A stretch of DNA of 64,000 nt from Homoserinibacter sp. YIM 151385 (GTDB taxonomy: Bacteria; Actinomycetota; Actinomycetes; Actinomycetales; Microbacteriaceae). The stretch is taken from positions 1,736,001 through 1,800,000 of the forward strand of contig NZ_CP115175.1 in NCBI RefSeq assembly GCF_027912415.1, written 5' to 3'. The notes below the pieces were generated by a model, which had not been told where the DNA came from, made no database searches, and saw only the letters and a list, made by a program, of their open reading frames with translations. The translations under genes were made by a program, and so were the position numbers. Shown piece by piece: positions 7,388 to 61,202 of this stretch. Position 1 is the stretch's first letter. Each line of letters begins with the position of its first letter.

Positions 7388-7482
7388 CCCCTTCCGAAAT
7401 GCAGGACGGAAGCCGTTCCGGAGGCGGAGGCCCTCGGCGCCGGCGGCGAGTGGGGCTCGCCCGTCCTGCATTTCGGAAGGGG
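7388..7482. repeat. Long inverted repeat with 22-bp perfect arms
   Basis: Left arm 7388-7409 begins CCCCTTCCGAAATGCAGG; the right arm 7461-7482 is its exact complement. The 51-nt loop is GC-rich and partly self-complementary. No gene end lies right beside it, so a terminator role is less obvious than for the other hairpins. It shares the core TGCATTTC with the inverted repeat at 51467. Confidence 0.8.
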
Positions 7483-32462: not shown

Positions 32463-32572
32463 GGCGCGAGATCAGGATCCGCGTCGGCGGCCGCACCCTC
32501 GGCGCCCGTCGCCGGCAGCGTCCGCGGGGCTCGCCGATCGCGCTCCGCGCGGCGTCTCCTGAATCCGCGCCA
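32463..32572. repeat. Degenerate copy of the GGCGCGGATTCAGGAG hairpin element
   Basis: The right arm CTCCTGAATCCGCGCCA (32556-32572) is identical to the right arms at 59803 and 60342. The left arm (32463-32477) is recognisable but has several mismatches, so the hairpin is decayed. Lies in the 214-nt gap between tRNA-Tyr and the transglycosylase gene, which otherwise holds nothing I can identify. Confidence 0.6.
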
Positions 32573-58632: not shown

Positions 58633-58708
58633 GACGCGGACTCAGGAGATGCCGGGGCCGCAATCGCTGCCGGGCGGCAGTCGGCGCCCGATCTCCTGAG
58701 TTCGCGCC
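58633..58708. repeat. Hairpin element related to the GGATTCAGGAG family (upstream of menC)
   Basis: 18-nt arms 58633-58650 and 58691-58708 with two mismatches (core ACTCAGGAGAT), around a 40-nt loop containing CAATCGCTGCCGG, which resembles GAATCGCTCCCGG in the loops at 59742 and 60281. Divergent member of the same family. Confidence 0.65.
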
Positions 58709-58731
58709 ACCACCGGGTGCAGACTGGGCTC

Positions 58732-59721
58732 GTGACCGCCGACGTTCCCGACCTGCGCGAGCTGCTCGACGGCGCCGTCGTGGTCGCACTCCCCCTGCGT
58801 GTCCGCTTCCGCGGCATCGACGAGCGCGAGGCGCTGCTCATGCGCGGGCCCGAGGGCTGGAGCGAGTTCTCGCCCTTCGCCGAGTACGACGACGAGGAGT
58901 CCGCGGCCTGGCTCCGCGCCGCCGTCGACTTCGGGTGGTCGGCCGGTCCCGCGCCGCGCCGCGACCGCATCCCCGTGAATGCGACCGTGCCCGCCGTCGA
59001 GGCGACACGGGTCGCCGAGGTGCTCGCGCGGTTCCCGGGATGCCGCACCGCGAAGGTGAAGGTCGCCGAACGCGGGCAGACGCTCGCTGACGACGTCGCC
59101 CGCGTGCGCGCCGCGCGCGAGGTCCTGGGGCCGGAGGGCCGCATCCGCGTCGACGCGAACGGCGGCTGGAACCTCGACGAGGCCGAGCGCGCCGCCCACG
59201 AGCTCGCCCCCTTCGACCTCGAGTACCTCGAGCAGCCGTGCCCGGGCGTCGAGGAGCTCGCCGAGCTGCGGGCGCGTCTCCACGACTGGCAGCTGCCGAT
59301 CGCCGCCGACGAGAGCGTCCGCCGGGCCGAGGACCCGCTCGCGGTCGCGCGGGCCGGCGCCGCCGATCTCCTCGTCGTGAAGGCCCAGCCGCTCGGCGGG
59401 GTGCGGCGCGCGCTCGACCTCGTCGCCGAGGCGGGTCTGCCGGCCATCGTCTCGAGCGCCCTCGACACGAGCATCGGCCTCTCGATGGGCGCGCACCTCG
59501 CCGCGGCGCTGCCCGAGCTCGACTACGACTGCGGCCTCGGCACGGCGGCGCTGCTCGCGGCCGACGTCACGGCATCCCCGCTCCTCCCGGTCGACGGCGC
59601 CGTCGAGGTGCGACGGGTCGAGCCGGATGCGGAGCTGCTGGCCCGGCACACCGCCTCACCCGAGCGCACGGCCTGGTGGCACGAGCGCCTCGCCCGGGTG
59701 CACGAGCGCCTCGCCGGCTGA
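58732..59721 (+). CDS. menC: o-Succinylbenzoate synthase
   Basis: 329 residues of the enolase superfamily. Dehydrates SHCHC to o-succinylbenzoate. Catalytic KxK at Lys108/Lys110 (TAKVKVAERG), metal ligands Asp141 (RVDANGGW), Glu167 (LEQPC) and Asp193 (AADES), and Lys217 (VVKAQPLGG). GTG 58732 is chosen because homology starts there; no strong Shine-Dalgarno is seen. It completes the OSB pathway with menF, D, E, B, A and G in this window; menH and a DHNA-CoA thioesterase are not seen. Confidence 0.94.
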   Translation: MTADVPDLRELLDGAVVVALPLRVRFRGIDEREALLMRGPEGWSEFSPFAEYDDEESAAWLRAAVDFGWSAGPAPRRDRIPVNATVPAVEATRVAEVLARFPGCRTAKVKVAERGQTLADDVARVRAAREVLGPEGRIRVDANGGWNLDEAERAAHELAPFDLEYLEQPCPGVEELAELRARLHDWQLPIAADESVRRAEDPLAVARAGAADLLVVKAQPLGGVRRALDLVAEAGLPAIVSSALDTSIGLSMGAHLAAALPELDYDCGLGTAALLAADVTASPLLPVDGAVEVRRVEPDAELLARHTASPERTAWWHERLARVHERLAG

Positions 59722-59741
59722 GCCGCGGCGCGGCGGCGCGC

Positions 59742-59819
59742 TGGCGCGGATTCAGGAGTCGCGCACGCCGCGGTGCTCCGGAATCGCTCCCGGACGACGA
59801 GGCTCCTGAATCCGCGCCA
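59742..59819. repeat. Hairpin element TGGCGCGGATTCAGGAG, copy A
   Basis: 17-bp perfect arms (59742-59758; 59803-59819) and a 44-nt loop. With its left flank it forms a 104-nt direct repeat (59716-59819) of the element at 60255-60358, with about seven mismatches. The repeat begins at the GGCTGAG containing the menC stop. Confidence 0.85.
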
Positions 59820-59840
59820 TGCGGCGAATACGATCGCCGC

Positions 59841-60260
59841 ATGGACGACGAATCGCCCCTGCCACCGGCGCACCCCGAGTTCGCGCAGCACTTCACCGAC
59901 CCGATCTACGACGAGCCCGGCGACGATCTCGGGCCCTTCGGCAGCGACGAGGCGGCCGACAGCATCACCGAGGCGCTCGACGGACCGCCGATCACCGCCG
60001 CCACCACCCTGCGCGAGCTCGTCGCACGCGAGTTCGCCGACGTCGGCGGCGACGCGGTCATCGACGATCCCGACGAGGACGACCCCTCCTTCGACATGTC
60101 GATCGTCGGCCTCGGGTTCCTGATCCTGCGCATGCACGGACGGATTGACGCCGACGGCGGGCGCATCCTGCTCGCCGCAGTGGAGCGGATGCAGGCGGCC
60201 TTCGGCGACTTCGAGCAGCTCGCGACCATGCGACGCGATCTGGAGACGTTCCTCGGCTGA
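59841..60260 (+). CDS. Small acidic hypothetical protein flanked by hairpin repeats
   Basis: 139 residues, strongly acidic (VIDDPDEDDPSFD in the middle), with a helical C-terminal half (LGFLILRMHGRIDADGG, AAVERMQAAFGDFEQLATMRRDLETFL). I do not recognise the family. ATG 59841 lies 6 nt after TACGAT, a leaderless-type start. Near-identical 104-nt repeats end just upstream and begin at its stop codon, so the gene plus one repeat is a discrete module. Possible roles include an immunity-like or regulatory protein, but nothing in the sequence decides this. Confidence 0.75.
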   Translation: MDDESPLPPAHPEFAQHFTDPIYDEPGDDLGPFGSDEAADSITEALDGPPITAATTLRELVAREFADVGGDAVIDDPDEDDPSFDMSIVGLGFLILRMHGRIDADGGRILLAAVERMQAAFGDFEQLATMRRDLETFLG

Positions 60261-60280
60261 GCGGCGGCGCGGCCGCGCAC

Positions 60281-60358
60281 TGGCGCGGATTCAGGAGTCG
60301 CGCACGCCGCGGTGCTCCGGAATCGCTCCCGGACGAGAGAGCTCCTGAATCCGCGCCA
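60281..60358. repeat. Hairpin element TGGCGCGGATTCAGGAG, copy B
   Basis: Same arms as copy A (60281-60297; 60342-60358) and almost the same loop; differences cluster at the loop's 3' end (GACGACGAGG versus GACGAGAGAG). Lies between the small acidic gene and the converging ABC ATPase gene, where it can act as terminator. Confidence 0.85.
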
Positions 60359-60389: not shown

Positions 60390-61202
60390 TCAGCTGCTGC
60401 GCACCGACCGCGCCGACCAGCGGCCCGCGTCGTGGCGCACCTCGATCGGGTGGTCGAACGCGGCCGAGACGAGCTCGGTCGTGAGGACCCCGGCCGCCTC
60501 GCCGGATGCGGTGATGCGCCCGTGCGAGATGAGGGCGGCGTGGGTGGTCGACTCCGGCAGCTCCTCGAGGTGGTGGGTGACGAGGATCGACGCGACCTCG
60601 GGGTGGAGGCGGCGGACACGGTCGACGGTCTCGAGCAGCTGCTCGCGCGCCGCGACATCGAGGCCCGTGGAGGGCTCGTCGAGGAGCAGCAGGCTCGGCT
60701 CGGCGATCAGCGCGCGGGCGATGAGCGCGCGCCCGCGCTCGCCCTGCGAGAGGGTCGGCCAGCGGGACGCCTCGACCTCGCCGAGCCCGAGGTCGTGCAC
60801 GAGGGACCGCGCGCGGGCCGTCTCGGCGGCGCTCGGCTCCCAGCGCGGCGGCAGGTCGAGGGTGCCCGTGATGCCGGTGAGCACGACCTCGAGGACGGTA
60901 CGCGGGACGTCGATCCCGTGCCGCGGGTTCACGTGCCCGATGCGCCGGCGCAGCTCCTGCACGTCCACCCGGCCGAGCCGGCCGCCCAGGATCTCGACCG
61001 TGCCGGAGGTGGGGTGACCCTGCGCGCCGCAGAGCGCGAGCGTCGTCGACTTGCCGGCGCCGTTCGGGCCGATGAGCGCCCAGTGCTCGCCCGCGCGGAC
61101 CTCGAGCGAGACGCCGTCGATGAGCGCGAGGCCGGAGCGCACGACGGTCGCACCGTCGAGCCGGAGGACGAGGTCGGGCAGGGGCGGGACGGTGCTGGAC
61201 AT
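60390..61202 (-). CDS. ABC transporter ATP-binding protein (orphan)
   Basis: 270 residues. Walker A GPNGAGKST (45-53), signature LSQGERGRA (about 151), Walker B SLLLLDEPSTGLD (about 173), H-loop VTHHLEELP. Sequence style matches stand-alone ATPases related to the ModF/iron-siderophore type. No permease is encoded alongside. ATG 61202 lies 7 nt after TAGGCT. It sits between the men genes and the cytochrome c assembly genes; whether it serves heme or another transport is unclear. Confidence 0.88.
   Translation of the reverse strand: MSSTVPPLPDLVLRLDGATVVRSGLALIDGVSLEVRAGEHWALIGPNGAGKSTTLALCGAQGHPTSGTVEILGGRLGRVDVQELRRRIGHVNPRHGIDVPRTVLEVVLTGITGTLDLPPRWEPSAAETARARSLVHDLGLGEVEASRWPTLSQGERGRALIARALIAEPSLLLLDEPSTGLDVAAREQLLETVDRVRRLHPEVASILVTHHLEELPESTTHAALISHGRITASGEAAGVLTTELVSAAFDHPIEVRHDAGRWSARSVRSS

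Follow-up and report, generated by a model that had tools for sequence, protein, structure and literature searches.

The locus lies in a 64-kb window (the whole stretch of DNA that was analyzed) of the genome of Homoserinibacter sp. YIM 151385, a single 2.88-Mb contig. It begins with menC, which encodes o-succinylbenzoate synthase (window positions 58717 to 59721, forward strand). A small gene encoding an acidic protein of 139 residues follows on the same strand (59841 to 60260), and beyond it, on the reverse strand and convergent with it, is a gene (60390 to 61202) whose translation was read as an ABC-type ATP-binding protein. The small gene is set between two forward-oriented copies of a repeat, copy A (59716 to 59819) and copy B (60255 to 60358). 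A preliminary description had reported two copies of about 104 nt with the same length and orientation, 17-bp perfect arms in each and the same placement relative to a stop codon, and all of this was borne out. Without gaps, 97 of 104 bases are identical, and the two copies form a direct repeat of 104 to 105 nt starting at 59715/6 and 60254/5 (93%). The perfect arms (59742 to 59758 and 59803 to 59819 in A; 60281 to 60297 and 60342 to 60358 in B) are complementary at 17 of 17 positions in each copy, and the paired-arm element proper measures 76 nt in both (59743 to 59818 and 60282 to 60357). Both copies open with GGCTGAG, in which the TGA is the stop codon of menC in copy A, so that menC ends inside the repeat, and the stop codon of the small gene in copy B. 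Four of the seven mismatches adjoin one another, and a gapped alignment made the interiors 98% identical. The identity ends exactly at the right arm; on the other side it continues past the left arm for about 26 nt and enters the stop codons.

In profile searches, the small-gene protein matched no family above the cut-off; a weak likeness to DUF4259 scored 15.3 bits against a Pfam cut-off of 22.8. Relatives of the gene were patchy: within the order, 10 of 395 further genomes had one, and no match was obtained in the same-family genomes searched or in the phages and plasmids searched. A phage or plasmid origin was dropped as a candidate, since nothing matched there and the element family of A and B (F1) was also absent from viral contigs. 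The interval between menC and ccs contained neither the small gene nor F1 in all four genus mates. Relatives lacking the gene had been predicted to keep a single hairpin, and this did not hold: two of the four had no element in the interval, and the other two (G002 and G004) had one with different arms (GCGGATACTG). That element is 97% identical between G002 and G004, and menC is 91% identical between them. From its absence at menC-ccs in the genus mates and its patchy presence in the order, the small gene looks acquired, and A and B look like a local duplication of an element beside it. A second perfect palindrome, with 10-bp arms (CATGCGGCGA..TCGCCGCATG), lies directly after copy A at 59818 to 59843 and overlaps the start codon of the small gene; the TACGAT between its arms could be a candidate -10 box for a leaderless transcript.

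A search of the genome for further hairpin copies, as the preliminary description had advised, recovered at least 19 dispersed elements of the form GGCGCGGATTCAGGA...TCCTGAATCCGCGCC, which make up F1; these 19 copies ruled out A and B as a private duplication. With a strict pattern (GGCG, 5 free bases, TCAGGA, 31 to 91 free bases and then the mirror image), this genome yielded 16 elements, none was obtained from 198 further genomes of the same family, and the reversed-pattern control gave none. Three more were recognized by their arms: a 120-nt element at 1916736, one at 227783 and the 76-nt element C, which lies upstream of menC between divergent genes (window 58633 to 58708). Element C has diverged arms of the ACTCAGGAGAT type, closer to those of a family at G003:142560 than to A and B, and may represent a sister family of its own. 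The window holds one further F1 element, of 109 nt, at 32463 to 32571 (C1:1768463-1768571), and 15 more lie elsewhere in the genome. A tighter pattern was absent from viral contigs and from a named genome collection that may leave out the window's own genome. Single, unpaired F1 arms lay, as judged by eye, in coding or unrelated sequence. By the gene calls made here, all 19 elements are intergenic in surroundings that are 90% called coding, with 8 between convergent, 8 between tandem and 3 between divergent genes. The background consisted of the 131 gaps that were 100 bp or longer in 424 kb of sequence; 20 of these were convergent, 67 tandem and 44 divergent. Gaps between convergent genes were therefore enriched for F1 (8/19) and also for a sister family, F2 (9/20), relative to the background (20/131). 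It was also observed that 15 of the 19 F1 elements lie within 19% of the genome (C1:1768463-2319087), with a binomial tail of 3e-8 for an interval that was chosen post hoc.

The total lengths of the F1 elements are stepped: 76 nt (n = 4, including A, B and C), 86 nt (n = 2), 96 to 98 nt (n = 5), 107 to 109 nt (n = 7) and 120 nt (n = 1). The period is 11.0 bp (R = 0.93; n = 18, with B dropped); 20,000 uniform random sets, evaluated over periods of 9 to 13, included none as good. F1 arms placed around a longer unit were ruled out, as no arm pair at 123 to 183 nt was found in the genome. Distant F1 elements have unrelated interiors (over 165 pairs, identity averaged 0.59 and peaked at 0.75), and A and B, as the exception with interiors 98% identical, are a recent duplication. 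RNA-type covariation was tested and none was found, either between left and right arms of one element or, beyond chance, as complementarity of the flanks outside the arms. The interiors fold about as well as their own shuffles, with 2 exceptions among 18 (z = -2.4 and -3.9). For the 11 nt inside each arm, a small local stem was favored over shuffles (1/500 reached it) but not over swapped interiors (156/500). Among known RNA families, only tRNAs were matched in the 64-kb window and three 20-kb stretches. With no covariation between the arms, and with interiors whose folding on the whole does not exceed that of shuffled sequence, the F1 arms are conserved as DNA sequence. We take them for two DNA sites of a protein that must stay on a single face of the helix. 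Lengths that rise by about 11 bp are what is expected if the protein grips both arms from that face, and they constitute a direct, testable prediction of two-site bridging. Helical dependence of this kind is known for short transposons and for looping proteins.

Besides being a dispersed intergenic family with conserved arms, unrelated interiors and lengths in steps of about 11 bp, F1 is locally clustered. Six F1 pairs lie less than 2 kb apart, against 0.24 expected, and the same number was found for F2, against 0.26 expected. In 3 of these 12 close pairs, both members have a common interior, always in direct orientation, and the same was seen in two other genomes (G206 and G125); the shared stretch of copied pairs often included tens of bases of one flank. 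Three close F1 pairs besides A and B have no gene between them (start-to-start distances of 130, 138 and 205), the pair of C and A encloses menC and has unrelated interiors, and one F2 pair with shared interiors (L172) encloses genes other than DUF559. Moreover, G002 has two adjacent element copies where G004 has one. From the excess of close pairs, the shared direct interiors and this difference in copy number, it follows that whole elements of these families are habitually copied to nearby positions and that A and B are one instance of this, with a gene that happens to lie in between. A comparison of G002 and G004 gave no clean empty site, the two cases of presence and absence being situated in broadly rearranged intergenic DNA, and no target-site duplication was apparent by eye in the flanks of 16 F1 copies. 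A and B are a local direct duplication of the element that carried along 26 nt of one flank and thus do not represent the clean insertion of a bounded module.

An inverted-word scan of 400 kb of this genome and of 400 kb each of G002, G010 and G013 revealed more families of the same design, namely, F2 (CGAAATGCAGGA), F3 (AGACATGTCT; 62 nt) and F4 (GTGAGGGGTCCCATATG), together with GAGTTGCCCA (56 nt), GCGGATACTG (67 to 68 nt) and GGGTGGCCA in G002. F2 is present in 8 of 199 genomes of the family. All 20 F2 elements of this genome, one of them inside the window (7395 to 7475), are exactly 81 nt long, and 27 of 28 in the seven other genomes measure 79 to 82 nt. Their interiors are unrelated and alignable only in close neighbors, and in other genera their outer flanks covary. 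G002 and G004 each have 13 pairs of the GCGGATACTG family when overlapping pairs are counted, and the other three genomes of the genus have none. The interiors of F3 (C1:1816357 and four others; L108-L122), unlike those of F1 and F2, are apparently self-complementary. A further paired-arm family of 54 to 55 nt (GACTCGCCAA) was noted in the first 400 kb of G010, at about 134000 and 211400 (L217 and L221).

The same gene is bracketed by F2 pairs in this genome (C1:134889-135740), in G125 and in G206 (L166, L174 and L181). Its product scored over the cut-off for DUF559 and below the cut-offs for REase_MTES_1575 and, in one case, AbiEi_4. The gene occupies the same chromosomal place in these three genera, between genes that we take to be gltA and dapD; it may be old there, or the site may be a hot spot. 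With the same arrangement in G094, the DUF559 gene was bracketed in all four genomes in which it was found beside F2; in the other four F2-bearing genomes, no DUF559 gene was present in the loci examined, which covered part of their F2 copies. A PF04480 search of the five genomes of the genus gave 23 matches, and 11 of these had the same 10-mer inverted word pair on both sides, compared to 2 of 3168 control positions (four genomes), one of which was the A/B locus itself. With 9-mers, the two-sided test was passed at 13 of the 23 DUF559 loci and at 13 of 3168 controls, and when the test was tightened by use of called gene borders, the result was 7/23 versus 0/810 genes. Among the 10 matches that failed the 9-mer test, two are, by reading, a Vsr-like protein and a long fused open reading frame. 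Matching arms on both sides were found for F2, F4, GAGTTGCCCA, GGGTGGCCA and other families. The arms vary from locus to locus, and sister nucleases share arm cores in five of five groups (L252/L253, L262/L267, L266/L174, L265/L271 and the trio L258/L259/L264). The GCGGATACTG family, which was found from its repeats alone, adjoins in G004 a DUF559-like gene that the PF04480 search missed and that has degenerate arms on its other side. The same bracketing is present on an Arthrobacter plasmid (NZ_CP012477.1; Micrococcaceae by its taxonomy line) and is absent from two DUF559 genes of G010, from five of six plasmid relatives and from the remaining genus matches; two of the plasmid relatives bear the AbiEi name. 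Arms of the sister families thus recur on both sides of DUF559/AbiEi-like genes, with arm type following nuclease type. Acidic and histidine positions that are typical of a nuclease core are conserved (S..E, GR.D, E.D with H, D..RD in the larger class), and the bracketed proteins therefore look like working nucleases. A search for a relative of solved structure gave only a marginal match, to an endonuclease-like protein (E = 0.75). Two nuclease classes seem to be tied to element sizes, the EYxG class to elements of about 55 to 62 nt and the ExDG class to elements of 64 to 89 nt. Among open-licence papers, no link of DUF559 or AbiEi nucleases to repeats was found in titles and the beginnings of abstracts.

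On the preliminary view, the small gene and its two flanking repeats form a repeat-bounded module, which came in as a single insertion or was produced when a tandem duplication was followed by replacement; the hairpins would then serve that unit. Parts of that view stood, in that A and B are near-identical, the gene looks acquired, being patchy and absent from relatives at the site, and pairs of sister families do bracket a gene; moreover, A and B provided one of only two control positions with a two-sided 10-mer arm pair. The unit itself did not stand up as well, given that 17 other F1 elements are dispersed in the genome, most of them without a module, that homologues of the small gene were bracketed by elements at none of 11 loci other than its own and that flank was duplicated on one side only. 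We consider such a unit improbable.

The F1 arms (..GGATTCAGGAG) are similar to those of the nuclease genes at G002:1465890 (ACAATTCAGGATC) and G003:142560 (CAACTCAGGAGATC), with TCAGGA common to all. The F1 elements examined had no DUF559-like gene in the surrounding 1.5 kb or so, and by this test F1 is therefore an orphan. The likeness of its arms and its architecture nevertheless suggest that F1 belongs in the nuclease system. A and B are probably REPIN-like repeats, each consisting of two inverted GGCGCGGATTCAGGA copies at a set helical distance with an interior whose sequence is irrelevant, and their spread may have been linked to a nuclease. A DUF559 nuclease, as a dimer or larger assembly, would bind and bridge the two arms and nick or cut the DNA, and repair would then copy the element nearby and, rarely, elsewhere. 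The nuclease belonging to F1 itself would have been lost, be too diverged or lie away from any element, and the small gene would be an acquired neighbor that is now found between two daughter copies.

Alternatively, the elements could be fixed regulatory sites at which a protein that binds DNA, perhaps the AbiEi-like half of a DUF559 protein, regulates, insulates or terminates transcription, with selection keeping the copies and ordinary duplication spreading them. The preference of F1 and F2 for convergent gaps, which would also fit a terminator role, the persistence of orthologous elements in G002 and G004 at 97% identity and the behavior of the arms as protein sites are all in keeping with this explanation. 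On the other hand, three F1 elements lie between divergent genes, most similar gaps in the genome have no element, the nuclease gene is flanked on both sides, beyond its promoter, and the six close F1 pairs far exceed expectation; we regard regulatory sites as rather unlikely.

The preferred reading, REPIN-like repeats with nuclease-linked spread, was compared to known systems. Like miniature inverted-repeat transposable elements (MITEs), F1 elements are short, intergenic and bounded by terminal inverted repeats; MITE copies, however, share interiors and show target duplications, whereas the F1 interiors are, as described above, unrelated and thus lack a shared internal sequence. Integron attC sites and gene cassettes likewise have conserved inverted ends and a variable middle beside a single gene, but the elements here are dispersed outside cassette arrays and no attC boxes were seen by eye. 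Homing endonucleases of the Vsr type have a related nuclease fold and may spread selfishly by cutting and repair. A homing gene interrupts its own site, whereas here the gene lies between intact sites and most sites are solitary. The bracketed genes are by profile DUF559 (PF04480), which together with REase_MTES_1575 (PF18741) is annotated as AbiEi-family antitoxin domain proteins; what sets them apart is their position between element copies that have arms of their own.

REPINs are the closest kind (PMC3116915 and PMC3733652). As with REPINs and their RAYT partners, the elements here are dispersed and extragenic, with inverted conserved ends, a spacer of set length and free sequence, and a partner enzyme gene beside its own repeats. 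In PMC3116915, spacer length and hairpin capacity are named as critical features. F1 has two conserved inverted ends at a constrained distance and is dispersed outside genes, but it does not show a hairpin spacer with compensatory changes. Moreover, its lengths proceed in steps of about 11 bp, its arms do not, by reading, start with a GTAG/CGTC tag, and the partner in the sister families is a DUF559/REase_MTES_1575 nuclease. We also considered whether these are classical REPINs whose Y1 (RAYT) transposase has since been lost from the genome. The architecture is as given in PMC3116915, and the genus has one Y1_Tnp (PF01797) match, in G001, with an internal stop. That profile had no match in this genome, G002, G003 or G004 (1 of 5 genus genomes in all), although controls were matched in 5 of 14; in addition, the gene bracketed in sister families is DUF559 rather than Y1, and F1 interiors have no general hairpin propensity. 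In the absence of a Y1 transposase from this genome, the classical reading was rejected as highly improbable.

More broadly, the chances seem about even that the DUF559/AbiEi-like proteins of actinobacteria evolved independently as a second class of RAYT-like enzymes. Each would be a nuclease that recognizes its own inverted arm pair at a helically set distance, sits between two elements and seeds stand-alone copies, and several systems whose arms exclude one another (F2, F4 and, by likeness, F1) would coexist in one genome; A, the small gene and B would then be such a cassette with another gene in the place of the nuclease. Among bacterial extragenic palindromes, the best-studied ones are linked with a single class of enzyme, the Y1 transposases, whereas here a different nuclease family, annotated as antitoxin or unknown, is bracketed by private repeats whose arm sequence follows enzyme phylogeny. 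Should this link prove functional, it would account for a class of intergenic repeats in actinobacteria, and the substrate of DUF559 proteins could be read straight from the genome, with many natural enzyme-site pairs available for study. Extra arms were also observed in tandem beside some elements (G002 C1:215382, 493648 and 1101638; L267; L268; L291), at spacings of about 21 to 23 or 30 to 31 bp, which are near whole helical turns.
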